DNA from: a virus
Strand: one strand, 5' to 3'
IMG/VR virus record: IMGVR_UViG_3300020171_000003
Span: 1 to 64,000 of that record
DNA length: 64,000 nucleotides
Positions 16,611 to 60,962 of the stretch are shown here, in pieces; the first letter of the stretch is position 1; every line of letters starts with the position of its first letter. Both the position numbers and the translations under genes were made by a program. The notes beneath the pieces are model-generated. The model worked only from the letters and a program-made list of their open reading frames with translations. It had not been told where the DNA came from and searched no databases.

Positions 16611-17690
16611 TTATTTAAATGGTAGTATATGTTGGAATTTAGATCCGGAAGTGAATAAAGCTTTTTTTATCTCTGTGTCAATTTCAACAGAAGAAGAGGT
16701 TGAAAGAATTTCTTTAAGAAAATCAGGATTAAGAGTGATTTCCATTTTCTCATCCTTTTGCAGAACAGTATCACAAGTGATTTCATAAGATGATTCACCT
16801 TTTGCTTTCTTTCCAAAGCAAGTGATTTTCTTATCTTCAAAAATAATCCGAATTAATTTCTCCTTTGCTACTTCTGATTCCGACATAATAGAAGTAACAT
16901 TTATTGCTTTAATGAAATCATCAGCAGGTAAATTGAATTTCTTACCTTTTACTTTTTCCATTAATCCAACAACATCATCAACAGGATATTCACCTTCTGT
17001 ATTTCTTGCACTTAATACAGCTTGATTATCATCCATAAAATGCAACCAATTATCTTTTAATAGATAAGCAACTGGTTTAAATTTAGCAACTTCTTTAACC
17101 GCTTTGTTTTTGATCATGAAATAATCGGAAGTAATTTCCTCATCCATTTCATAAAAAGAAGCTCGTCTACCGTCACAAGAAATAACAGAACATCCGGTAA
17201 CATAAAGATTTGTGAGTGTGTTTTGAAGTTCATCACCTCCAACACTAAATTGGCAAAGAGCTAAACCGTTTACAAAGTCTTTCGGCAAAGGTAACCATTC
17301 TGCTTCTTGATCAAAAATACTATCCTCAATCTTGTCTAAGGCTTCTCCTAAATCATTTGATACAACAACATTGAAAGACGCTTTAGCTTTACCACTCTTT
17401 ACATTAATAATACCTTCGGCTGTTTTGATCAGTTGGATATCTTCTTCACTTGCAGACACAAAAGACAGGAACTCTTTTGCTGGTACAGAAAATGGAAAAT
17501 CAGTTTTAAAAGGATAGTGATAACTGATTCTATCATTATAGGTTATTACATCTTCACCGGTGAAAATGAAATGAGTCATTTGCTCGATGACCTCTTTTGC
17601 GGCTAAGCCTGGCGAAACCTTCCTCAAAGCTGATTCGAGGAGACTCTTTTGGAACTGTGTTGACTGAATTTCTTTTTGTAATTTTGGCAT
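16611..17690 (-). CDS. Sliding clamp (DnaN-like)
   Basis: 359 residues. The N-terminal pattern (TYNDRISYHYPF then VPAKEFLSFV) and later sections with repeated beta-alpha-beta layout fit a beta-type clamp; GRRASFYEM and LPADDFIKAI are typical strands and helices of domains 2 and 3. It keeps the PolA-type polymerase on DNA. GGAG lies at good spacing before the ATG, although the start is inside the end of the DpdA gene. Confidence 0.8.
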   Translation of the reverse strand: MPKLQKEIQSTQFQKSLLESALRKVSPGLAAKEVIEQMTHFIFTGEDVITYNDRISYHYPFKTDFPFSVPAKEFLSFVSASEEDIQLIKTAEGIINVKSGKAKASFNVVVSNDLGEALDKIEDSIFDQEAEWLPLPKDFVNGLALCQFSVGGDELQNTLTNLYVTGCSVISCDGRRASFYEMDEEITSDYFMIKNKAVKEVAKFKPVAYLLKDNWLHFMDDNQAVLSARNTEGEYPVDDVVGLMEKVKGKKFNLPADDFIKAINVTSIMSESEVAKEKLIRIIFEDKKITCFGKKAKGESSYEITCDTVLQKDEKMEITLNPDFLKEILSTSSSVEIDTEIKKALFTSGSKFQHILPFK

Positions 17691-18684
17691 CTGGTCTTTC
17701 TCCTTTTTTCAAACATAAAATGTTTTCAGAATTGTTTTCAAACCAATATGAAATTAATCTACGATATGTACCATCTATTTCTATAACTTTTCCGGACACC
17801 TCCACTTCTCTGTCATAGTTTAACATTTGAGGAAAGTTTCCTGCAAAAAACAAATTTAAATCCATTTGTTTTCCTGCTTCAAGATAAAAAAGCATATTAA
17901 TGAAATCTCGCTGACTACCATCATTACATACTCCTGGTTCTATTATTTCTTCTTTACCGTTATTCATTACAGAAGAACCAACTTTAAATCCTAAACTTTC
18001 AATGTATTCTTTAAAATATCTTTTTTCTATTTTTGAGGAAGTTTGATAGTGTTTATTTTGTTCATTTCTTCTTGGACTTCTTTCTGACATTGTTACTATC
18101 CAAGGGATCTCATTAAACACATATTTATTTTTTCGTGTTTTCGGAATAATAATGAGGCCGTATCTTGAGAACTGGACCCAAGAACTTGAATCAACAGAGT
18201 ACCAAGGATATCTATTCATAAGAGGTAAAGAAGTCATGGCAAAACCGTGAGTATTCTTTTTGCCAATCATACTGAAAACTTTGTCACCGAAAGATATGTA
18301 ATCTTTTTTTGACATATCTTGACCGAGTCCTCCTATACCGATATATTCATAATTATCAATATAGTGTTTCAAGTATTTAAAATCTTCTTTAGGGTGAAAG
18401 ACAGGTAAAGGGTTTAAATGATGTTTTTCTTCCAAATACTTCTGAACTTTTAAGGTTCCTTCTGCATTAAAGATTACGTCAATATTAACATATAATTCTA
18501 ACAAGTCAACATTTTTCTTTACATATTCCGCATAGTTATCAACGTAGGTCCAAAACTCTTCGGAGTCATAAAAGGAAAAATCAAGTGTAGAAACATCTTT
18601 CCTTTCTTTTTGTTTGTTAATAACATGTTCGGTGTAAAGGGAATGCGCTCCTGAATCAAGAAATACTTTTATATTTGGATTCAT
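17554..18684 (-). CDS. dpdA: DpdA-like DNA transglycosylase (TGT family) for 7-deazaguanine insertion
   Basis: 376 residues. Start set at MNPNIKVFLDSGAHS, just after the glycosyltransferase stop. TGT-like barrel features: FLDSGAH (8-14), LYVNIDVI (64-71), PVFH (94-97), GIGGL (116-120) and SVDSSSW (163-169), the last being typical of phage DpdA proteins. It should swap guanine in DNA for a 7-deazaguanine base. FolE, QueE and QueD genes upstream supply that base. The last 45 codons overlap the clamp gene in another frame and look unlike the rest. Confidence 0.85.
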   Translation of the reverse strand: MNPNIKVFLDSGAHSLYTEHVINKQKERKDVSTLDFSFYDSEEFWTYVDNYAEYVKKNVDLLELYVNIDVIFNAEGTLKVQKYLEEKHHLNPLPVFHPKEDFKYLKHYIDNYEYIGIGGLGQDMSKKDYISFGDKVFSMIGKKNTHGFAMTSLPLMNRYPWYSVDSSSWVQFSRYGLIIIPKTRKNKYVFNEIPWIVTMSERSPRRNEQNKHYQTSSKIEKRYFKEYIESLGFKVGSSVMNNGKEEIIEPGVCNDGSQRDFINMLFYLEAGKQMDLNLFFAGNFPQMLNYDREVEVSGKVIEIDGTYRRLISYWFENNSENILCLKKGERPDAKITKRNSVNTVPKESPRISFEEGFARLSRKRGHRANDSFHFHR

Positions 18685-18685
18685 T

Positions 18686-19777
18686 TTATTTCTTTTTATA
18701 AAGTGGGTTCTCTGTTTTTCCTGTAAACATGATATCCAAGCATCTTTCAAAAGATTGATCAAAAGATGTATAAAGATAATCCCACTTTCTTGGGATTTCA
18801 TCAATATGCCGCATTATCATTTTTGCTGCCGATCTTACATCTTTTTTAACATAAAGAAATTCTTGGGGTAAACATTCCGGAAACGATCTGAAATAAGGAT
18901 AAACAGGACGACAATCACAAGTAAGTGCTTCAAGTAAGGTCCAAGAAACCCAATCCTGATCTGCACAATTGAATTGAATTTTAGATTCCAATAAATTGAA
19001 ATAGTATTCTTCTTTGGTTAAATTTGTTTTGACTTCAATATAATCTTTTAAATAAGAAGGTATAGAAGGCTCTTTACTGCTTGAAGTTGTGACAAGAAAC
19101 TTTGGCGGATCCTGATACATTTGATTCATATAAGATACCACATTGAGAAAAAACTTAGGATCTTTTTCAGTATCCCATCTACTTGTAAAGATAACTTGTC
19201 TTTTCTTTTTCGGCAATACTTCTGGAAAGTGTGTTTTCACTTCTAAAGATTGATAAGGAAGACCTGTTAGATAAACTTTTGGTCCTATATTATTCATTTT
19301 ACAAAGGTCTTGAAGTTCAGTACTTGTTACAAATATTCCGTTAAATATTTTACCATACCCTACTTCTAAAGGACGCATCCAACTTCTCATGCTGTAAGTG
19401 AAATCAAAAATATCAACGGATTGAGCATGAAGCATGGAAAAATATTTTAAATTTAAATCGGTTAGTTCATCTGCATATTTAATCGCTTCAATTCCTGGAG
19501 TCCAGAAATCATCGAAATAAAGAATATCGCCACGCCTTACTATACCGTTATGCATTGCTTCAAGAAAATAAGCTACTTGGGTTAAAGACCAGATACCTCT
19601 GCCGTGTGCATCAAGAACAGAACCTTGTTTAATTTCATCAGTAAAACGCTTACCCTCTACTCTTGTATAAGCAATATCTCTTTTTTTAAGAACAGATTCA
19701 ATCCAACCATCATCTTTTCTTGATAGTTGCATAGTGTATCTTTCTTTATACGGTTCTAACGGAAAGTACCAGAGCAT
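18686..19777 (-). CDS. GT-B glycosyltransferase inside DNA-modification cassette
   Basis: 363 residues. The C-terminal half is GT4-like: VIFTSRWDTEKDPKFFL starts a Rossmann-like domain, and DWVSWTLLEAL provides the donor-binding helix seen before the usual conserved Glu. The N-terminal half has HGRGIWSL and DILYFDDFW. It lies 1 bp upstream of dpdA and downstream of folE, so a sugar could be added to the modified base or to another target. Phage-encoded glucosylation of modified bases is known for 5-hydroxymethylcytosine; a 7-deazaguanine target would be new and is inference. Confidence 0.75.
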   Translation of the reverse strand: MLWYFPLEPYKERYTMQLSRKDDGWIESVLKKRDIAYTRVEGKRFTDEIKQGSVLDAHGRGIWSLTQVAYFLEAMHNGIVRRGDILYFDDFWTPGIEAIKYADELTDLNLKYFSMLHAQSVDIFDFTYSMRSWMRPLEVGYGKIFNGIFVTSTELQDLCKMNNIGPKVYLTGLPYQSLEVKTHFPEVLPKKKRQVIFTSRWDTEKDPKFFLNVVSYMNQMYQDPPKFLVTTSSSKEPSIPSYLKDYIEVKTNLTKEEYYFNLLESKIQFNCADQDWVSWTLLEALTCDCRPVYPYFRSFPECLPQEFLYVKKDVRSAAKMIMRHIDEIPRKWDYLYTSFDQSFERCLDIMFTGKTENPLYKKK

Positions 19778-19788
19778 AACTTTTCTCC

Positions 19789-20256
19789 TTATAAGATTGT
19801 TTTATCTTGTTTATATAACGGATCATCCAAGCGGGTAACTTTACCTTTTAGGTGATGAACACTCCACCATTTCAATCTGTCTTTAAATACCAATTTAAAA
19901 TCTGTGATATACAAAGTTTGGGATTTAGATTTATAAGTATAAGGTAAAGCAAGAACTACCCGCATGAATGTCCTATCAAAAAACTTTTCAGGAATAAAAT
20001 CTAATTGTTTGGGATATTCTATTTCAATTACAATTTCATATTCATGGTCTTTCAAAAAAGAAAAAATTTCCTCAGCATTGTAAGGAGGCCCTGGATTATT
20101 ATCAGCCCCAAAATAAATTCTTCTAATATCCCGGTTATCTTCTAATGCTTTAATTATCTCCAAAAGTTTTATATATCTATCACCAACAAAAAGAGTTTTT
20201 GTCTTTCTTTTTGGACCTTCTACTTCTATTCCTGTGAAAAGTCGTCTCTTAATCAT
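19789..20256 (-). CDS. Unknown protein of the 7-deazaguanine cassette
   Basis: 155 residues from MIKRRLFTGIEVEGPKRKT. The start overlaps the previous stop and has GAGGTG upstream. Contains TLFVGD, RRIYFGADN and EYEIVIEIEYP, an alternating strand/helix pattern. No catalytic motif I can name. Being locked between folE and the glycosyltransferase suggests a role in making or attaching the modified base. Confidence 0.6.
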   Translation of the reverse strand: MIKRRLFTGIEVEGPKRKTKTLFVGDRYIKLLEIIKALEDNRDIRRIYFGADNNPGPPYNAEEIFSFLKDHEYEIVIEIEYPKQLDFIPEKFFDRTFMRVVLALPYTYKSKSQTLYITDFKLVFKDRLKWWSVHHLKGKVTRLDDPLYKQDKTIL

Positions 20257-20596
20257 AAAACACCTCAGCTCCGTTCTCACCATCCTCCATTACACAAACG
20301 TAAACAACATGATATCCAATGCCTTCTTTCATATCTGCATAAAGTTCATTACATAAATGCTCACAAGATAAGCCGGAATAATTTCTATTCACATAACTTT
20401 CTCCGATAATACTATCCAGATCATTTTTAGCTGTTATAAATTCCACATCTCTATTTTCATGCTCTACTCTGATTTTCATTGTTACATGAAACTCATGTCG
20501 GTGAATGCTTCTAAGATAATGTACTTCTTGAGGAGCATCAGGCCAATTATGAAATGCAGGGAATCTTGTGTTAATAATTACGTTTGTTGGATTCAT
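20249..20596 (-). CDS. Possible T-fold (QueD-like) protein
   Basis: 115 residues with FHNWPDAP then RSIHRHEFHVTMKI, resembling the HxHNF zinc strand of QueD/6-pyruvoyl-tetrahydropterin synthases. SCEHLCNELYADM resembles their TAENL helix, and VVYVCVMEDGE the closing strand. It lacks the catalytic Cys of the true QueD at 22821. It may be a diverged second T-fold enzyme or a partner; low certainty. Confidence 0.5.
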   Translation of the reverse strand: MNPTNVIINTRFPAFHNWPDAPQEVHYLRSIHRHEFHVTMKIRVEHENRDVEFITAKNDLDSIIGESYVNRNYSGLSCEHLCNELYADMKEGIGYHVVYVCVMEDGENGAEVFYD

Positions 20597-20599
20597 TGT

Positions 20600-21199
20600 T
20601 TACTCCTTATGAAGCAAAGAAATTTTAATAAGTTCATAACCTTTCATTTCTAAATGGCTATGTTGTTTGAAAATACCACGTACAGCAGAAGTGCTAAATC
20701 CGTTTCCACTTTGTTTTATTCCTCGAGACTGCATACAATCATGATGACCACGAATAACAATCATTACACCCTTAGGTTTAACATGAGTCACAAAGTTTTC
20801 TATGATCTGATGGCAAAGTCTTTCTTGTGTTTGCGGTCTTCTTGAATAATGATCAATCAATCGGGCGAATTTAGAAGCCCCGATAATCTCTTTGCTTGGA
20901 ATATACATCATCCAAGCAAGAAATTTAAAAGGAAGTAAATGATGAGAACACATGGAAACGAGTTCAATTTTATCAGAACAAATAATTTCATCATAACCTT
21001 CTATATTCGGTTGTAAGGAGTATTCTTCTTTGGTAAATTCAGAATTGATATTTTTGAAAAACTCCCGAGAGTACATTTTTGCCACACGCTCGGGAGTTTC
21101 CCTTAAATGAGTATCGTTCAAGTCTAAACCTAACTCGTAAAGAAGTTCTCCTATGTGATGAGCCACGCTGAGTTCATTCTCTGTTAGATCCGGAGTCAT
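20600..21199 (-). CDS. folE: GTP cyclohydrolase I
   Basis: 199 residues, normal length for FolE. Active-site sequences: MCSHHLLPF (zinc Cys and His), SKFARLIDHYSRRPQTQERL, and RGHHDCMQSRGI with the second zinc Cys. It converts GTP to dihydroneopterin triphosphate, the first step of 7-deazaguanine synthesis, feeding QueD. Such a copy lets the phage raise precursor supply during infection. Confidence 0.93.
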   Translation of the reverse strand: MTPDLTENELSVAHHIGELLYELGLDLNDTHLRETPERVAKMYSREFFKNINSEFTKEEYSLQPNIEGYDEIICSDKIELVSMCSHHLLPFKFLAWMMYIPSKEIIGASKFARLIDHYSRRPQTQERLCHQIIENFVTHVKPKGVMIVIRGHHDCMQSRGIKQSGNGFSTSAVRGIFKQHSHLEMKGYELIKISLLHKE

Positions 21200-21210
21200 T
21201 AAACTTATCC

Positions 21211-21834
21211 TTATTTTACGAGCTTATATACACCATCTTTAGAAGGAATACTGAAACCTTTAGTAATCAAATGTTTAATGTGGCTATGAACTCTTGAAGG
21301 TGTAGTATCCAATTTTGCTGCCGCATCTTTCAGAGTAAGACCAGTAACTACCATAAGGTCAATATCGTATGCTTGAGAACCTTTTCTTGAACCCAACGGA
21401 GACAATTCATACTCTTTTTTGGGCTTATCTACTTTCTCTTTTACTACTTTCTCTTTCTTGGGCTTAGGTTCTTTTGCAGGTCCTTTTGGGCGTCCTTTTC
21501 CTTTTTTACCTTCAGGAGGAACATCCGTCACTTCTTCCTTTTCAACTTCATCCTTGGAATCGTCTGTCGGGTTTCCATAATCGTTTTCGTCAAGTCCGTC
21601 CTCATTTTCTTCTTCTTCTACTTCATTCTTAATCAAACCGTCATTGTAAAAAGCAATGATAGCTTCATCAAGAACAATACCATCTTCATCCAACTTTTCT
21701 ACAGTTGCAATAAACCATTCACAGATAGCATCTTTCTTTGTTCCGATCAGTTTAATTTGTTCGGTTACTTCTTCCATTTCGTTCAACATTGTGCATACTT
21801 TTTTCAACTCTTTAAAATCGGTTTTATCGTACAT
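21211..21834 (-). CDS. AT-hook plus helix-turn-helix protein
   Basis: 207 residues from MYDKTDFKE. Helical N-terminus (1-65), acidic linker (EVEEEENEDGLDEND), a lysine-proline stretch with an AT-hook-like core GKGRPKGPAKEP, and a C-terminal winged/HTH domain (LTLKDAAAKLDTTPSRVHSH then IKHL). The HTH resembles the C-terminal part of the protein at 41286 (LTIKEIAEKAATKESRVNSH). It likely binds DNA. It sits inside the modification cassette, where it may be a regulator or a DNA-organising protein. Confidence 0.6.
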   Translation of the reverse strand: MYDKTDFKELKKVCTMLNEMEEVTEQIKLIGTKKDAICEWFIATVEKLDEDGIVLDEAIIAFYNDGLIKNEVEEEENEDGLDENDYGNPTDDSKDEVEKEEVTDVPPEGKKGKGRPKGPAKEPKPKKEKVVKEKVDKPKKEYELSPLGSRKGSQAYDIDLMVVTGLTLKDAAAKLDTTPSRVHSHIKHLITKGFSIPSKDGVYKLVK

Positions 21835-21851
21835 TTTTAACACCTTTCCGG

Positions 21852-22511
21852 CTATTTACAGCCAATTAGTTTGTGAATCTGATAATTAAATTTGACATGA
21901 AATAATGAATCTTTTTCCATTTTATTATATAACATGGATGCCTGCATTACATTTTTTTCTATATCTTCGGACAAACACGGACTGAATACATGATTGAATT
22001 GTTTATACACTATAGCTTTTTCTTTGGCAAATTGGTAATCTCCTTCATTTAAAATTACATGTTTGATTAAATCTTTCTCCCTTAGACAATTTAAATTTTT
22101 ATAATTAAAAACATCTTCACTTATTGCGCTCGGACCTTTCCAATCAACAATGAAACAATCTACATTAGGAATTAAATTCTCAACACAATGTGTACCGTTA
22201 GTTTCTACTGAAATAAAATAACCTGAATCTTTTAGTAATCTACATAGTAAAGACAAATCGCCTTCTTGTTCAAATGGTTCACCTCCTGTGATTAAAATAT
22301 TTTGACAATGTAACTGCTGGACTGCTTTATGAATTTCTTTAGAAGAACACTCTGAACCCAATTCTCCATCTTGAGCTTGCTTGGTGTCACAATAAGAGCA
22401 TCCACCTATACCTAAAGTGCATCCTTGCATTCGGATAAAAGTAGCCCAACTTCCTTGACCAAATAAGTTCCACTCACCATTAATGCTTCTGAAAATTTCA
22501 TTGATTTTCAT
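21852..22511 (-). CDS. queE: 7-carboxy-7-deazaguanine synthase, radical SAM
   Basis: 219 residues. INGEWNLFGQGSWATFIRMQGC matches the QueE N-terminus, with the radical-SAM cysteines in GCTLGIGGCSYCDT, then LITGGEPFEQ and SVETNGTH. It turns carboxy-tetrahydropterin into CDG. GGGAG precedes the ATG, and the start overlaps the upstream gene by 14 bp. Size is normal. Confidence 0.9.
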   Translation of the reverse strand: MKINEIFRSINGEWNLFGQGSWATFIRMQGCTLGIGGCSYCDTKQAQDGELGSECSSKEIHKAVQQLHCQNILITGGEPFEQEGDLSLLCRLLKDSGYFISVETNGTHCVENLIPNVDCFIVDWKGPSAISEDVFNYKNLNCLREKDLIKHVILNEGDYQFAKEKAIVYKQFNHVFSPCLSEDIEKNVMQASMLYNKMEKDSLFHVKFNYQIHKLIGCK

Positions 22512-22824
22512 AACCGTTCTCCCTTAAGAAATCAAAAACCTCTTTTTTTGGAACAGTACAGTTTGCCCAACTGTTAATTGTTCCCCCGCAAATACACATA
22601 TCACCTGTTTTTATATTATTTTTTAAAAGATCAGAAATGTAATAACTTTCATATCCAGTAGGTCCGCCTTCAAATTTTAATATATCCTTATTCTTTTCTT
22701 TTGCTTTTATAATAATCATTTCCAATTCTCTATTTGATATGAGCAAAAATTTTCTGTTAATATATTTATTTGTGGCCTTGTCCCAATTACCTGTTTCTTG
22801 TGTCCATTTACTTTTGATTTTCAT
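22498..22824 (-). CDS. Unknown protein between queD and queE
   Basis: 108 residues from MKIKSKWTQETGNWDK, whose ATG overlaps the queD stop (ATGA). It has a CICGGTINSWANCTV patch and a final helix KKEVFDFLRENGY. Its place between queD and queE suggests a linked role, but I see no family. Confidence 0.55.
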   Translation of the reverse strand: MKIKSKWTQETGNWDKATNKYINRKFLLISNRELEMIIIKAKEKNKDILKFEGGPTGYESYYISDLLKNNIKTGDMCICGGTINSWANCTVPKKEVFDFLRENGYENQ

Positions 22825-23204
22825 GCTGTTAGCTCCGCATAACATTTATCGGTTTCATATAATCTTACTTTTTCTAAAACAATGTGTTTCGGAAATTTAT
22901 TTAAAAGAAGATAATAAATCCATCTACACATATTTTCGGCTGTAGGGTTATCAAAAAGATCATTTAAATGGGTGTGGTCTAATTTATTAATTATCCAGGT
23001 ATTAACTACTTCTGACATTCTTTGAAAATCAAGAATCATTCCAAACTCAGGATCATTCACATCTTGAACAGTATTCTCCTTATCTGAAACAGTTATTTCT
23101 AACCGAAAATTATGGCCATGCGGATTTTTACACCTTCCCTGATGATTCGGTAAAAAATGTGAAGCCGCAAAGTCAAAGCTTTTACAAACAGTCATTGTTG
23201 GCAT
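22821..23204 (-). CDS. queD: 6-carboxy-5,6,7,8-tetrahydropterin synthase
   Basis: 127 residues. FDFAASHFLP and PHGHNFRLEITV give the zinc histidines, CKNPHGH the catalytic Cys, PTAENMCRWIYYLL the conserved helix, and VRLYETDKCYAEL the end. It converts dihydroneopterin triphosphate to carboxy-tetrahydropterin. First of the pathway genes in transcription order. Confidence 0.92.
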   Translation of the reverse strand: MPTMTVCKSFDFAASHFLPNHQGRCKNPHGHNFRLEITVSDKENTVQDVNDPEFGMILDFQRMSEVVNTWIINKLDHTHLNDLFDNPTAENMCRWIYYLLLNKFPKHIVLEKVRLYETDKCYAELTA

Positions 23205-54208: not shown

Positions 54209-54233
54209 ACTATTTAATCAACTGAGGTTGAAA

Positions 54234-56294
54234 ATGAAAAAAAAGATATTATTTGTAGGTGAAGCACCTTACGCATTTACTGGTAATTCTAATATGATGA
54301 ATGCTTTACTTTCATCTGTTGATACTGATAAATACGAGGTGTGTTGTTTTGGTTCAGGTGAGTCTCAAATAAAAGGAGATTCTATATTTCATTCTATGCC
54401 TTTTACTATTATCCCTTCTTTCAAACACGGTGATTTTTGGGGTAATGTCCATTTGTTAGAAGTTATTAATTCAAGTTCTTTTGATGTATTATTTATGGTA
54501 GGAATAGATTTGTGGAGATATGCTTCTATTTTTCCTGAAATAGTGAAATTAAGACAAGTTAAAAAATTTAAATGGGTATTTCTTTTTCCTTACGATTTTG
54601 AAAATTACAGACGAGAATGGGCAGGTTGGATTAATGCAATAGATATTCCGTTAGTTTATTCCCAGTATGGAGAAGATCTTTTAAAAGAATATCATCCTAA
54701 TATTACTTACTTTAGACCACCTTTGTTTGGCTCAGAGATTTTTACTTCTTTCCCTGTTGAGCAAAAGAAGATGGAAAAAAGTAAAATATTTTCTCAAGTA
54801 GCAAACAAGTTTATTTTTGGTTTTATTGGTCAGAATCAATTACGAAAAGATCCTTTAAGAGTTTTAGAAGCTTTCTCTTTGTTCCATAAAAAGAATCCAA
54901 ATACTGCTTTATATCTTCATACAGAAAATCAAGGTCCAAAAGGGGTTTATAATATAAATCAAGCTGTGTTTGATCTTGATTTTCCTCCACATACAATTTT
55001 ACTTAAAAAAGAAGGTCAAATTTACAGTCAATTGGATATGATCCGAATTTATAATGCAATTGATTGTTTAGTGAATGCTTCTTTTCAAGAAGGTTTATCT
55101 TGGACAGTTTTAGAAGCAATGTTATCAGGATGTCCTGTTATTGCTTCGGATACAACCGCTCATCCTGAGTTATTATGGGATGCAGGCATTCTTGTTAAAA
55201 GAACGGATCGAGTTCTTTTACCAATAGGAGGTATTACTGAAGGTGTTGTTTATGCTTCTACTCATGCGTGTAATACTGAAAAATTAGCGGAAGCAATGGC
55301 TACTATGTATTTAAATGATGAATATAGATTAGAATGTTCTGAACAAGGTTTACTTAGAGGAAAAGAATGGTTAGCAAGTGTTTCTAATGTGAATGATGTT
55401 TTAGATGTTGTTTCTATAGAGAAACCGGTTCAAAGAGTAGAAAGAATAAAAGGTGTTTTATTTGGTCAAAAAGCAAGTGCTGGTGACATTCTAATGACTA
55501 CACAATGTTTGAAAGGACTGAAAGAACTTCATCCGGATTTGCCTTTAAATTACATGACTTCTCAAAAATATATGAATATTTTAGAAGGGAATCCGTATAT
55601 TGAAAATATTTATTCTTGGGATGATTCTTTGCCTGCTCGTTTTGATTTTTATTACAATCCACATGAGCAACGTATTTTACCAGGACATTGGGGTAGAAAC
55701 TCAAATTCCCTATTGTCGGACTTTTATTGGAAAATTTTAAAAGTAGAACCTGGTTCGTTTTTTATTTATCCTCAAGAAATTCCTTCTGAATTTTCAGTTA
55801 AAATTCTTTCAGTAGATAGACCCATTGCTGTTGTTTATTCCGCAGGAGCAGATAGACCTTTTAGAGAATACCAATATTTTGGAATAGTATGCAATGAGAT
55901 TAAAGATAGATATGTTACAATTCAATTAGGAGGACATGATGATTATCCTGCAGGAGCAGAAATTGATCTAAGAGGACAACTAACTTATAGACAAGAAGCT
56001 TGGGTAGTCCAGAGAGCTTCACTTGGTTTAACTGTGGATACTTTTGGAGCACATTTAGTAGGTGCTTTAGGTGTTTCTCAAGTTACTTTACCAGGTTCAA
56101 GTAATAGCAGGGTAGTTCAACCAAAACAAACAGCAGGTGATCTTATTATATTAGATCCTGATTATGTAAAAGTGTGTCCTGGTTTAGGGCCTTGTTCTGC
56201 AAGTGTTAGAGATTGTCCTTTGCCTTGTATTGGTTCTATTTCTCCTAAAAAAATTATAGAGTCAATTGATTTTATAGAAAGGAAGGGTTTATGA
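54234..56294 (+). CDS. Two-domain glycosyltransferase (GT4-like + GT9-like)
   Basis: 686 residues from MKKKILFVGEAPY (TGAGGT before the ATG). First domain (1-400): GT-B fold with FGFIGQNQLRKDP and EGLSWTVLEAMLSGCPVIAS, the GT4 donor site. Second (405-680): FGQKASAGDILMTTQCLKGL, AVVYSAGADRPF and VDTFGAHLVGALGV, as in heptosyltransferase-like GT9 proteins. Fusion of these two is uncommon. It should add two sugars, or build and transfer a glycan. Confidence 0.75.
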   Translation: MKKKILFVGEAPYAFTGNSNMMNALLSSVDTDKYEVCCFGSGESQIKGDSIFHSMPFTIIPSFKHGDFWGNVHLLEVINSSSFDVLFMVGIDLWRYASIFPEIVKLRQVKKFKWVFLFPYDFENYRREWAGWINAIDIPLVYSQYGEDLLKEYHPNITYFRPPLFGSEIFTSFPVEQKKMEKSKIFSQVANKFIFGFIGQNQLRKDPLRVLEAFSLFHKKNPNTALYLHTENQGPKGVYNINQAVFDLDFPPHTILLKKEGQIYSQLDMIRIYNAIDCLVNASFQEGLSWTVLEAMLSGCPVIASDTTAHPELLWDAGILVKRTDRVLLPIGGITEGVVYASTHACNTEKLAEAMATMYLNDEYRLECSEQGLLRGKEWLASVSNVNDVLDVVSIEKPVQRVERIKGVLFGQKASAGDILMTTQCLKGLKELHPDLPLNYMTSQKYMNILEGNPYIENIYSWDDSLPARFDFYYNPHEQRILPGHWGRNSNSLLSDFYWKILKVEPGSFFIYPQEIPSEFSVKILSVDRPIAVVYSAGADRPFREYQYFGIVCNEIKDRYVTIQLGGHDDYPAGAEIDLRGQLTYRQEAWVVQRASLGLTVDTFGAHLVGALGVSQVTLPGSSNSRVVQPKQTAGDLIILDPDYVKVCPGLGPCSASVRDCPLPCIGSISPKKIIESIDFIERKGL

Positions 56295-56986
56295 GACCTT
56301 TAGTAATTGCTTCAAATATGTTAATGGAAGCGAACAATGATTTAGAAGGTTGGATTGAGAATATGCAACAAGTTACTGATTTGGGCATTCTTGTTGTGGA
56401 CGGCGGTTCTACTGACGGAACAAAAGAGATTTTAGAGGCTGCTGGAGTTATTGTTATTACAGATAATATAATTCAAAGAGAAGGATACGGACCTGCAAGA
56501 AATCAATTAAGAAAACTTTGTAAAGAGAACTTTCCAGAAGCTCATTGGATGGCTTATTTTGATGCTGATGAAAGAATCAATGAAAAAGACATTCATTTTT
56601 TGAAATGGGTTCAAAACTATTTAAATGAAAGCGTTTCTGATGTTGTTGCTTTTCCAAGAATTGATTGGTTTGATAAAGAGAAAACTAAATCAAATAATGA
56701 TATACGGATAGTTCCGGATTTTCAAGCAAGAATGACAAGATTAAATGCTCCTTTGGAATATATAAGAATTTGTCATGAACAGATTGTAACAACTAAAGGC
56801 ATTTTTTGTAATATAGATGTTTGTCCGCCTATTCATCATTTTCATAGGTCAGCAAGTAAAGATAAGCGTGATTACATTGGTAAGGTCTGTGCTATGCTTC
56901 ATTCTAAAGATCCATATGGACATACTTATCCGAAACACCATAAAGAAGATTATTATTTTGATTTGTATCAGAAAGAAGGTTTATGA
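56291..56986 (+). CDS. GT2 glycosyltransferase
   Basis: 231 residues. VVDGGSTDGTKEIL near residue 36 and the metal-binding YFDADERI near 94 are GT-A/GT2 hallmarks; HFHRSASKDKRDY follows. ATGA overlap with the previous gene. Works on an activated sugar in the cytoplasm. Confidence 0.8.
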   Translation: MRPLVIASNMLMEANNDLEGWIENMQQVTDLGILVVDGGSTDGTKEILEAAGVIVITDNIIQREGYGPARNQLRKLCKENFPEAHWMAYFDADERINEKDIHFLKWVQNYLNESVSDVVAFPRIDWFDKEKTKSNNDIRIVPDFQARMTRLNAPLEYIRICHEQIVTTKGIFCNIDVCPPIHHFHRSASKDKRDYIGKVCAMLHSKDPYGHTYPKHHKEDYYFDLYQKEGL

Positions 56987-57615
56987 AGGAAGAAATTTTT
57001 ATTTTTGGAAATTCTATGTGCTGTACTCCTTCTAAGGAATCTTATCTTGATTTACTGAAACAAGATTATGATGTTAACGGTATGTGGATGAGAGGAATGA
57101 CAATTTGGCATGTTAATAAATATCTAAGAAATATTGTTAGAGGAGATAATTCTTGGATAATTATTAATGTAGGAATAGTTGAGGCTGTTACTAGAAAATC
57201 CTATCATGTTTTATACTATTGGTTAAATGAATTACTTTCACATGATGCTGATGAACTGTTTAAAGAAACTATTTTACCATACTTGCAAAATATTTCTTTA
57301 AGTATGGATAAAGAAGATGTTTCTTTTTGGAATATAATTCCATCCGGTTGTTTTTTACGGTTGTTTGAACTTTGTTTAAAAAAATTAGAAAGTTATAGAA
57401 TCATTGTGGTAGGACCTGCTTATCCAAAACCTTTAGAAAATACTTCAAGATTTTCTATTTGTATTAATTATGCTTCTATTCTAAAAAATTTAGAAAAAAT
57501 TTATTTTATTGATACTTGGAACAAGTGTAAAGAGGATTCTATTGATGATGCTCATTTGAATGCAAATGGACATAAAAAGATTTACAATCTCATAAAGGAG
57601 AAAATTAATGGATAA
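56983..57615 (+). CDS. SGNH/GDSL-like hydrolase
   Basis: 210 residues. FIFGNSMCC near the start is a block-I Ser candidate, IIINVGIVEAV a block-III-like Asn strand, and DDAHLNANGHKKI the block-V DxxH. SGNH enzymes in glycan loci add or remove acetyl groups. ATGA-coupled to the GT2 gene. Confidence 0.65.
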   Translation: MKEEIFIFGNSMCCTPSKESYLDLLKQDYDVNGMWMRGMTIWHVNKYLRNIVRGDNSWIIINVGIVEAVTRKSYHVLYYWLNELLSHDADELFKETILPYLQNISLSMDKEDVSFWNIIPSGCFLRLFELCLKKLESYRIIVVGPAYPKPLENTSRFSICINYASILKNLEKIYFIDTWNKCKEDSIDDAHLNANGHKKIYNLIKEKING

Positions 57616-58558
57616 AAGAAATGTGTTTACCTCTACAGGAATAAAATTATTACAACATCCGGAAGTCATACATTTTTTACAGAGAGGACGATTTATTCCT
57701 GTTTCATTACAAGTTGCCCCTACTTCAAGATGTAATTTGAATTGTTCCTTTTGTTCTAACAGCAAAAGGAGTAAACATGAAGATTTGGATAGAAATGAAT
57801 TGTTTTATTTTATTGATGTTTTACAAAGAACAGGACTTAAAACAGTAGAAATCACTGGTGGCGGTGATCCTACAATGTATCATAGCATTAATGAGTTGAT
57901 AGAGTGTATTTATGAATCTGATCTGGAAGTCGGATTAATTTCAAATGGTATTTTACTTAAAGAGAAAATTAGTCCTAGAAATTTAAATTCATTAACTTGG
58001 TTAAGAGTCTCTTTAAACTCGTTGGAGTATTGTGACGATATTGATTTACCTAAAATTAATGGTACACTGGGATTCAGTTTTGTAATTCATTCTAAAAATA
58101 TAAATAACATATTAAAATATGGTAAAAGAATAAGAAAATTGGTGGATAAGTACCATGCTTCTTATGTCCGCATTGTTCCGGATTGTTTACCTGGAGAAGA
58201 TGAAAAAAGATTGAATGTAATCTGTGAAGCTTTTGTTCGTGAATTTGGGGAACCGTTTTTCTTTCAAGAGAAGATTTTTAGGAAACCAGATAACTGTTGG
58301 TGGGGATATTTAAAACCGTTTCTTCTTCATGATAAGTTTGTTTATCCTTGTAGTTCTGTTGTTCTTAATTCAGGATCTGAAGGAGTATTTCATGAAAAAT
58401 TTAGAGTAGCTACTATGGATGATTTTCTTTTAAATTATAGACAAGGTTTTAAAGTAAATTCTTTTCCTACAGCTAATTGTGATAGGTGTGTTTTTGCAAA
58501 TCAGAATGATATGGTAGATTCAATTTTGAATCCTAATAAAATGAGGAATTTTTTATAA
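57608..58558 (+). CDS. Radical SAM enzyme
   Basis: 316 residues. SRCNLNCSFCSNSK holds CxxxCxxC for the 4Fe-4S cluster, TVEITGGGDPTM the SAM-binding GGE-like motif (here GGGDP), and the C-terminal cysteines (CWWGY, YPCSS, NCDRC) are SPASM/twitch-like. Radical SAM enzymes in such loci modify sugars or peptides. Its presence inside a phage virion operon is unusual. Confidence 0.8.
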   Translation: MDKRNVFTSTGIKLLQHPEVIHFLQRGRFIPVSLQVAPTSRCNLNCSFCSNSKRSKHEDLDRNELFYFIDVLQRTGLKTVEITGGGDPTMYHSINELIECIYESDLEVGLISNGILLKEKISPRNLNSLTWLRVSLNSLEYCDDIDLPKINGTLGFSFVIHSKNINNILKYGKRIRKLVDKYHASYVRIVPDCLPGEDEKRLNVICEAFVREFGEPFFFQEKIFRKPDNCWWGYLKPFLLHDKFVYPCSSVVLNSGSEGVFHEKFRVATMDDFLLNYRQGFKVNSFPTANCDRCVFANQNDMVDSILNPNKMRNFL

Positions 58559-59088
58559 TGAGAAAATTACAAATAGGTCCAGGAAAAGCTTATTTCCCCG
58601 GATGGGACAATGTGGATATATTTTCAAATGTTCGGGCAGATCTTTATGCCTCTGCTCTTGCTTTACCTTACGAACCTGAAACTTTTGATTTGTTATATAG
58701 TTCACATGTCCTTGAGCATATAAATAGAAACATGACAGTAGCAGCATTGAGTCATTGGCATTCGTTGTTACGCAAAGGAGGGGTGCTTCGTTTAGCGGTT
58801 CCCAGTTTCTCTGCTGTTGTTGAGTACTATAATAAAGAAAAAGATTTGGTTCCTTTACTTGGTCTTCTATTTGGAGGACAAAGGTTTATTTTAGATTCTC
58901 ATTGTTGTGTCTTTGATGAAATGTTTTTAACCAAGTTATTAAAACAAGTAGGATTTACTGAAATAAGAAAATGGGATTGGAGAAAGACGGAACATGCTCA
59001 ATTTGATGATTATTCCCAAGCGTATCTTCCCCATATGGATAAAGAAGAAGGTCTTCTAATGTCTTTGAATATGGAGGCCGTAAAATGA
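58558..59088 (+). CDS. SAM-dependent methyltransferase
   Basis: 176 residues. LQIGPGKAYFPGWDNVD is the degenerate motif I, and FDLLYSSHVLEHI with LLRKGGVLRLAVP marks a class I enzyme, as in small methyltransferases of surface-glycan clusters. Overlaps the radical SAM gene by 1 bp and the next gene by 4 bp. Confidence 0.75.
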   Translation: MRKLQIGPGKAYFPGWDNVDIFSNVRADLYASALALPYEPETFDLLYSSHVLEHINRNMTVAALSHWHSLLRKGGVLRLAVPSFSAVVEYYNKEKDLVPLLGLLFGGQRFILDSHCCVFDEMFLTKLLKQVGFTEIRKWDWRKTEHAQFDDYSQAYLPHMDKEEGLLMSLNMEAVK

Positions 59089-60362
59089 AAAATATTTATA
59101 TTTATGATCCAGAACCTTTTCTTCATGATTATGTTTCTCATAAATTTTTAACTCCTTTATTGAAGTATGGTACTACTAAAGGAATGACTATTAAAAAGAT
59201 AAACTCTTTTGATGAAGCGAAAAACGGAATAGTTTTATCTTTCAGTGGACATTTAAAATCAGATGTTATTAAGAAATTAAAAGAGGATAATAACTTTATT
59301 GGTTCTTTTGATATTACAGATAGCACATGGTTAAGTGAAGCTTATAGATGGGATCATGAAGCTTGTTCTTCTTTAGATGCTATTTTTAAATTTAGCGGAA
59401 TTCCAAAGTATCAATATTCACAAGAACTCCAGATAGGTGAAGATTTAACTTATTATAAACATGATTATCCTTACATGGAAGATAAAGAATGGCAGTATTT
59501 TTGTAACTTGAAAGAAAACAATAAAATTATACCTATGCCTCATATTCCGTGGCAGCAATATAATATTGTTCCTATTCACTATTTAAAGAAAAGAGACGTT
59601 CTTGTAAGGGGAGGAAATCATTATTTACGTTTTCATTTGTTTCTTAATTTTTTAAAATTTGGATTAACAAGTAAATGGTCCGGTTTCTTTATGGCTGATT
59701 ATCATAAATCTAAAATGGATGCAGATCATAGATTTTGTGATAATTGTTGTGAAATATGGAACAGAAATAATAATAGATTTCCTTATGAAGAATACTTAAA
59801 TATTCCTATTTATGAGAAATGTAATAATGGTCATATTCCTTGGCCTATTACGGATGAAACCACTTTTCAGAATAAGAACAATCATAGATGGAATAATAAA
59901 TGTATTCCTATTTATTATTGGTTAACAGAAACTTTTGTTAATAAACACGGATATGTGGACATGAAGAAAGTAGAGGATTGTTTCTCTATTTTTTATCTTC
60001 ATCCGGATGATTTAGGGAATGTTTTAGCTCACCATTTATTTACAGCAGATTATAAATGGATTTATAGCATTGATATTCCTCCAAGATTTTGGGAATGTAG
60101 TGCGGCGAAAACAGTAAGCTTAATGCCAAGATGGACAAGAAATCAAACTCATTTTCCAAATTTGATTGAGAATGAGCATTATATTACTTTTGATGAGGCT
60201 TTTGAAGACCTTGAATTAGTAATGGACACAAAACAAGAACAATATGACCATATAACAAATAATTGTTATAATTTATATCAAAAATGGATTAAAGGTGAAG
60301 AATACGGAATATCAATTAATTTGATGAATCATATATTTAATCAGATTGAAGAAAGGATATAA
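59085..60362 (+). CDS. Putative GT-B glycosyltransferase, CgeB-like
   Basis: 425 residues. Cysteine/tryptophan-rich middle (RFCDNCCEIW), and near the end FWECSAAKTVSLMP then FPNLIENEHYITFDEAFEDLE, which resembles the donor end of CgeB-type glycosyltransferases (ECxAA/G...L..). The rest is divergent, so the substrate cannot be guessed. Confidence 0.5.
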   Translation: MKNIYIYDPEPFLHDYVSHKFLTPLLKYGTTKGMTIKKINSFDEAKNGIVLSFSGHLKSDVIKKLKEDNNFIGSFDITDSTWLSEAYRWDHEACSSLDAIFKFSGIPKYQYSQELQIGEDLTYYKHDYPYMEDKEWQYFCNLKENNKIIPMPHIPWQQYNIVPIHYLKKRDVLVRGGNHYLRFHLFLNFLKFGLTSKWSGFFMADYHKSKMDADHRFCDNCCEIWNRNNNRFPYEEYLNIPIYEKCNNGHIPWPITDETTFQNKNNHRWNNKCIPIYYWLTETFVNKHGYVDMKKVEDCFSIFYLHPDDLGNVLAHHLFTADYKWIYSIDIPPRFWECSAAKTVSLMPRWTRNQTHFPNLIENEHYITFDEAFEDLELVMDTKQEQYDHITNNCYNLYQKWIKGEEYGISINLMNHIFNQIEERI

Positions 60363-60962
60363 ATGCATTACGATATTGATTACTTTGAAAACGGATTAGA
60401 AACAGGTAAAAGTTGCTATCAGAATTACCGTTGGTTACCTGAAGAAACTCTTTCCTTAGCTATGCGTTTCATTGATCATTTTAATTTAACTCCTGAGGAT
60501 ACTATCTTGGATTACGGATGTTCCAAAGGATATTTAGTGAAAGCTTTTCGTTTACTTCATAGAAAAGCTTTTGGTTATGATATAAGTCCTTATGCTTTAT
60601 CTTGTGCTCCTCCGGAAGTAAAAGATTTTTGTTTTGATTATCTACCAAGAAGACCTTTTAATTTTTGCATTGCTAAAGATGTTTTTGAACATATTTCTTT
60701 ACCAGATTTGCAAAGACTTTTAACAGGAAATTTAAATACAAATACTCTCTTTGCAATTATTCCTCTTGGTGATAATAAAATTTATAGATCTTCAATAAAT
60801 AATCTTGATCCCTCTCACATTGTCTGTTATAGTGAGGTAGAATGGATGAAATTTTTCGGAAAATGTGGTTGGATTGTGAAAGATTTTACTTTTAGTTTTC
60901 CAGGATTAAAAGAACATCATCCTGAAAGATCACACGGTTTTTTTACTTTGGTGGAAGTATGA
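60363..60962 (+). CDS. SAM-dependent methyltransferase
   Basis: 199 residues. TILDYGCSKGYLVKAF is motif I, AFGYDISPYAL motif II, FCIAKDVFEHI motif IV. Class I, similar to small-molecule or sugar methyltransferases. Abuts the GT gene without spacing. Confidence 0.8.
   Translation: MHYDIDYFENGLETGKSCYQNYRWLPEETLSLAMRFIDHFNLTPEDTILDYGCSKGYLVKAFRLLHRKAFGYDISPYALSCAPPEVKDFCFDYLPRRPFNFCIAKDVFEHISLPDLQRLLTGNLNTNTLFAIIPLGDNKIYRSSINNLDPSHIVCYSEVEWMKFFGKCGWIVKDFTFSFPGLKEHHPERSHGFFTLVEV

Follow-up and report, generated by a model that had tools for sequence, protein, structure and literature searches.

A phage 7-deazaguanine cassette with a linked glycosyltransferase: a candidate pathway to glycosylated deazaguanine in DNA

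Herein, a gene cassette predicted to serve 7-deazaguanine modification of phage DNA, with a glycosyltransferase (GT) gene embedded in it, is described from a 64,000-nucleotide stretch of viral DNA (the window; positions 1 to 64,000 of IMG/VR virus record IMGVR_UViG_3300020171_000003), which derives from an 80.5-kb virus contig. The cassette spans 17554-23204 on the minus strand, where nine leftward genes follow one another in the order queD, a 115-aa open reading frame (ORF), queE, a gene for a basic helix-turn-helix (HTH)-like protein, folE, PTPS2, hyp164, GT and dpdA. Because the intergenic gaps range only from -25 to +11 nt, the nine-gene set fits a single transcription unit.

Genes of the cassette and the DpdA assignment

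A first-pass annotation, made from the sequence alone, had read folE, queE, queD and dpdA as parts of one leftward operon, and this is borne out by the ORFs and by family models that secure each assignment. The gene queD (22821-23204) encodes a 6-carboxytetrahydropterin synthase (PF01242, 4.5e-33), queE (21852-22511) a radical-SAM 7-carboxy-7-deazaguanine synthase (PF04055, 6.4e-9; phrog_2076, 1.2e-27; TIGR04349, 3e-36), folE (20600-21199) a GTP cyclohydrolase I (PF01227, 1.8e-51), and dpdA (17554-18684) a DNA-guanine transglycosylase of 376 aa (phrog_887, E 2.2e-38). By these models, FolE, QueD and QueE stand together with a transglycosylase, as in DpdA-type systems. The GT gene (18686-19777, 363 aa) lies directly upstream of dpdA, with 1 bp between its stop codon and the dpdA ATG, as first reported. 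The same annotation counted three unknown proteins; the genes are present, although those without an obvious name number four. Two of them can be characterized further: 20249-20596 encodes a second protein of QueD/PTPS fold, the QueD paralogue PTPS2 (phrog_17812, 1.2e-19; hhalign to QueD), and 19789-20256, with its start set at the second ATG, encodes hyp164, which belongs to a family (hyp179) that recurs beside the GT.

DNA modification by phage DpdA has been described for 9g (dG+) and CAjan (dPreQ0) (Hutinet 2019; PMC6884629). By tblastn, the window DpdA has relatives in 180 named phages, 9g and CAjan among them, and the motifs DSG, HGFA and SVDSSSW were invariant or almost so across 20 relatives. 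Sequence profiles of DpdA retrieved no tRNA-guanine transglycosylase (TGT) from the PDB; the assignment draws instead on motifs, PHROG and TIGR00449. Next downstream of dpdA lies an ORF (16611-17690) that overlaps it by 137 nt in a different frame and whose own sequence reads as sliding-clamp-like. The order folE-dpdA-clamp also occurs in the ordinary dpdA phages 9g, CAjan, MMDA13 and MiCath; compared with these, the window has PTPS2-hyp164-GT inserted between folE and dpdA.

The same evidence bears on a reading in which the cassette modifies tRNA, a TGT inserting deazaguanine and the GT glycosylating it there. TGT homology is common to tRNA and DNA enzymes, and glycosylated queuosine (Q) is known in animal tRNA, where QTMAN and QTGAL, like the GT envisaged here, act on a deazaguanine inserted by a transglycosylase; their acceptor is the cyclopentenediol of Q. 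Phages, in contrast, are without Q-making enzymes, QueA, QueG and QueH being reported absent from them (PMC6884629). Furthermore, the window DpdA falls in phrog_887, the family of the proven 9g and CAjan DNA enzymes, and its gene adjoins the sliding clamp as in those phages; a tRNA target is therefore considered highly improbable.

The glycosyltransferase and its genomic company

The window GT has no Pfam or PHROG match of its own; a profile built from six of its relatives matched PDB glycosyltransferases (WlaC, 6eji, 2.4e-5, and other GT4 enzymes), and PF00534 was matched by closely linked relatives. An AlphaFold model of the GT (predicted local distance difference test, pLDDT, 94.8; predicted template modelling score, pTM, 0.92) was searched with Foldseek against the PDB and retrieved retaining GT4 enzymes, with BshA as the best (1.7e-12) and MshA, PglA and PimA also present. 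All of the top 50 matches were GT4 and related enzymes, and the T4 glucosyltransferases AGT and BGT were not among them. Across 40 diverse relatives, E8, R13, Y14, T15, R200, E204 and K205 were found to be invariant, the last three being candidate residues of an R/EK donor-phosphate site, and E283 was kept in at least 90%. Altogether, profile and model class the protein as a GT4-type GT-B glycosyltransferase, in line with the GT-B fold proposed at first, and by its fold it is predicted to transfer a sugar from a nucleotide-sugar.

Relatives of the GT were collected from 2.9 million viral contigs of IMG/VR by a scan with a GT-only pattern, which used no deazaguanine information (410 relatives), and by a second scan led by the GT of Acidovorax phage ACP17 (397 relatives). 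The best 80 of each scan were kept, pathway-gene profiles were run on all loci, and clustering at 70% identity gave 62 clusters in which the GT is flanked by 5 kb or more in each direction. Deazaguanine genes were present in the fetched stretch in 60 of the 62 clusters, with PTPS2 in 57 and FolE, QueE or QueD in 55. The first-pass annotation had asked whether the GT occurs mainly in phages without dpdA; this was not so, DpdA being found within the fetched stretch in 54 of the 62 clusters, and several of the others have it farther off on the contig. The two exceptions (loci L196 and L244) carry PTPS2 elsewhere on the contig, as does L239, a further contig resembling L244; L196 has a distant DpdA as well. 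All linked PTPS2 genes (206/206) and all linked DpdA genes (194/194) are oriented on the GT strand.

When the viral contigs were scanned with single sequences, neither the window DpdA nor the GT of Xanthomonas PhiXhv retrieved any match. The PhiXhv GT family, intended as a negative control, was thus not sampled, and because of this the base rate was taken from named phages, where PTPS2 occurs in 21 of 50,697 records (0.04%). Weak GT matches in the PhiXhv phages themselves have GlmS and a deacetylase, rather than deazaguanine genes, as neighbours; these were set aside as distant paralogues. Among the same named records, the GT was found in five unrelated lineages (Synechococcus BUCT-ZZ01, Sinorhizobium Phosso, Xanthomonas X1, Acidovorax ACP17 and Pseudomonas Wroclawvirus), always in queE/folE clusters, while 84,980 prokaryote species genomes yielded four GT matches, all on contigs of metagenome-assembled genomes carrying the same cassette. 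In every checkable lineage the GT is accompanied by deazaguanine genes, and this near-exclusive linkage goes beyond chance. Cultured carriers include Synechococcus phage BUCT-ZZ01 (on S. elongatus PCC 7942) and Pseudomonas phage Paride (on PAO1), whose DpdA, GT and PTPS2 genes are currently annotated as 'hypothetical proteins'; a jumbo-phage survey has reported a deazaguanine system for PA5oct.

This linkage also weighs on the view that the GT targets a cell-surface glycan or a phage protein and merely shares the operon. GT4 enzymes mostly make surface glycans and are common in phages, and the window has a separate GT4/GT2 cluster at 54-57 kb. However, with deazaguanine linkage near-exclusive in more than 60 clusters, and with linked DpdA and PTPS2 all on the same strand, such a target appears quite unlikely. 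The rightward cluster itself (54228-60962, plus strand, past structural-like genes) encodes a GT4 protein of 688 aa and a GT2 enzyme, together with a radical-SAM protein and two methyltransferases. It has no link to the cassette and may serve to glycosylate the surface or the virion.

GalE is encoded next after the GT in many relatives (TIGR01179 score 293.8 bits, curated cut-off 262.3), and DegT aminotransferases and HldE-like nucleotidyltransferases lie near the GT in some. These genes support sugar chemistry, though not generally, because they occur in few lineages. The hyp164/hyp179 family was found in 94 of 110 DpdA540-type, 12 of 55 window-type and 3 of 30 DpdAp-type loci; in named phages its members were confined to GT carriers, lying about 27 kb away from the GT in Wroclawviruses. 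The hyp164 model (pLDDT 79) showed no significant PDB match and no known fold. A reading of hyp164 as a QueE without the radical-SAM motif is weakly supported and stands as no more than a lead: hhalign gave E 0.002 at a probability of 13%, and in the fold search E. coli QueE came at rank 23, which is not significant.

Two further features of these loci were observed. Cassettes with a DpdA of the ACP17/BUCT type have, in 18 cases, a member of a second, distinct GT subfamily upstream of dpdA (L001 7001-8341; L039, L041, L045 and others), which suggests a disaccharide or a second modification. In addition, two divergent DpdA groups (a phrog_10773 type and a type of ~520 aa; L005, L046, L172 and relatives) are unnamed in PHROGs and have the TGT motifs, one of them matching TIGR00449 at 4.6e-7.

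A base probably made without QueC

No match to QueC (PF06508) was obtained on the window contig, and none of full length in 50 GT-carrying records, which gave three marginal partial matches; as a control, strong full-length PF06508 matches were found in 6/6 other dpdA phages. Phages with DpdA and base-making genes have been listed as having QueC, with two exceptions (Hutinet 2019; PMC6884629). Because QueC is absent from the GT cassettes, their base is probably derived from 7-carboxy-7-deazaguanine (CDG), not preQ0, and tailored otherwise. The earlier reading is amended accordingly: the cassette is probably not a preQ0 pathway, and the GT has further partner genes, namely PTPS2, hyp164/hyp179 and often GalE.

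Aligned with QueD (hhalign probability 95, E 2.8e-8), PTPS2 retains the Zn-binding His triad and the base-anchoring Glu, and is without the catalytic Cys and Asp-His, which are invariant or nearly so in QueD and unconserved in PTPS2. Because PTPS2 is also present in a few phages without the GT, its role most likely lies in base making. PTPS2 was also seen as the C-terminal end of longer proteins in Vibrio phage Bakedbeans (L089 7179-8363) and Chryseobacterium phage MA9V-3 (L091 7404-8309), phages in which no GT was found. Pfam did not bear out an 'Appr-1-p' label given to the neighbour of PTPS2 in RHph_I1_18.

The PTPS fold of this protein could suit a pathway in which FolE and PTPS2 feed a BGluT-like enzyme, the GT making a pterin glycoside and its linkage to dpdA being indirect. 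A tetrahydrobiopterin glucosyltransferase (9v0l) is indeed found within the 50 best fold matches of the GT; nevertheless, it ranks below many unrelated GT4 enzymes, and PTPS2 does not have the catalytic residues of pterin synthases. Some cassettes are minimal. At L203, L205, L208 and L214, only hyp179-GT-dpdA was found, with no base-making or PTPS2 genes; L203, L205 and L214 keep GT and dpdA while FolE, QueD and PTPS2 were not found in their fetched 20 kb. L203 and L205 have, after dpdA, a gene for a Vut_1/YhhQ-type transporter; there the base would be salvaged, in an apparent salvage version of the cassette. Because these two loci keep only hyp179-GT-dpdA and the transporter, the partner of the GT is DpdA and not the pterin enzymes, and a pterin glycoside is for this reason regarded as very unlikely.

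A xanthine/hypoxanthine-type phosphoribosyltransferase is present in 18 of the 62 clusters (L070, L001, L005 and others), two of these cassettes also having an IMPDH-like protein. It hints at the handling of free bases or nucleotides, and hence at an order of events in which a free base or nucleotide first receives its sugar from the GT and DpdA then inserts the ready-glycosylated deazaguanine. However, DpdA and TGT pockets are generally known to take small bases, and the bulky groups known on Q in tRNA are attached once the base is in place. The huimycin GT does act on free 7-deazaguanine (PMC7439116), and the order GT-then-DpdA, though unlikely, has this precedent.

The basic protein of the cassette (21211-21843) has a C-terminal winged-helix-like segment with weak HTH matches, has relatives in several cassettes near the window type, and is perhaps a regulator. 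The 115-aa ORF between queE and queD (22498-22845; start probably at 22824, in an ATGA overlap with the queD stop) had no family match and no relative among the first 86 loci. A PADLOC scan for ordinary defence association gave nothing except a weak viperin-like match of QueE.

Proposed pathway, precedents and meaning

The best explanation, which we hold to be probable though well short of assured, is a phage DNA-hypermodification cassette in which a deazaguanine, once placed in DNA by DpdA, is glycosylated there by the GT. By homology, FolE, QueD and QueE would convert GTP to CDG; PTPS2 may then take the place of the usual QueC step and tailor the base, which DpdA, as a homologue of proven DpdA enzymes, would exchange for guanine in DNA. 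The GT, judged by its linkage and GT4 fold, would glycosylate the deazaguanine after its insertion, with a nucleotide-sugar as donor, and hyp164 may serve as its accessory in many phages. In many relatives, phage GalE and sometimes a sugar aminotransferase would alter the donor; the window phage, without either, would draw on host nucleoside diphosphate (NDP)-sugars. Candidate acceptors are the carboxylate, the exocyclic N2 (with huimycin and dapiramicin as precedents) or a group made by PTPS2. The likely benefit would be shielding from host nucleases, as with plain deazaguanines and T4 glucosyl-hydroxymethylcytosine. More tentatively, and as a version we would lean slightly against, the cassettes may form a separate, widespread pathway in which PTPS2 replaces QueC to yield a novel 7-substituted deazaguanine, DpdA inserts it and a dedicated GT4 enzyme glycosylates it, with phage-made UDP-galactose or amino sugars in some lineages and a second GT in others.

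Several points weigh against glycosylation of deazaguanine in DNA. In the window GT, as in 134 of 221 relatives, the EX7E motif begins with D in place of E. Sugar genes are concentrated in a few lineages (10/62 clusters) and absent from window-type cassettes. On some fragmentary GT contigs no DpdA was found, and the absence of QueC on fragments is no proof, as host QueC could supply preQ0. Plain CDG or 7-deazaguanine carries no hydroxyl, which leaves the acceptor unexplained, and a sugar in virion DNA is a prediction. The glycosylated-deazaguanine reading of the first-pass annotation is nonetheless supported, and a glycosylated base in virion DNA would be expected from it.

Known systems share parts of this scheme. 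Other DpdA systems have dpdA, folE, queD and queE and a phage-encoded base replacement in common with the window; they differ in that the window cassette is without QueC, amidotransferase and QueF and would place a sugar on the base. The phage variants attributed to Cui (2023), namely dPreQ0, dCDG, dDG and mdPreQ1, are likewise phage-specific tailorings of deazaguanine, reportedly without a sugar; a CDG decarboxylase, DpdL, has reportedly been proposed as well, and PTPS2 may correspond to it. If the reading is right, the T4 glucosyl-hydroxymethylcytosine system is alike in that a modified base receives its sugar in DNA from a phage GT-B enzyme, whereas its base is different and enters by incorporation of a hydroxymethyl nucleotide rather than by transglycosylase exchange. 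In huimycin biosynthesis, FolE, QueD and QueE are combined with the GT HuiG, which glycosylates a 7-deazapurine at its exocyclic amine; the likeness drawn here is one of gene content, and the product is a free antibiotic made with QueC and a methyltransferase, without DpdA (PMC7439116).

In the literature covered, which did not include Cui 2023 and a 2024 MMBR (Microbiology and Molecular Biology Reviews) review, no published description of a sugar on deazaguanine DNA was found, and the modification is probably, not certainly, new. The reading assigns probable roles to two protein families that had no name. To our knowledge, sugars on DNA bases are known on pyrimidines only, and the base would, if the reading is true, be the first glycosylated purine in DNA. 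It would represent new DNA chemistry and a novel form of DNA disguise in phages, would account for the loss of QueC in many dpdA phages, and would predict resistance to nucleases that recognise guanine-containing sites.

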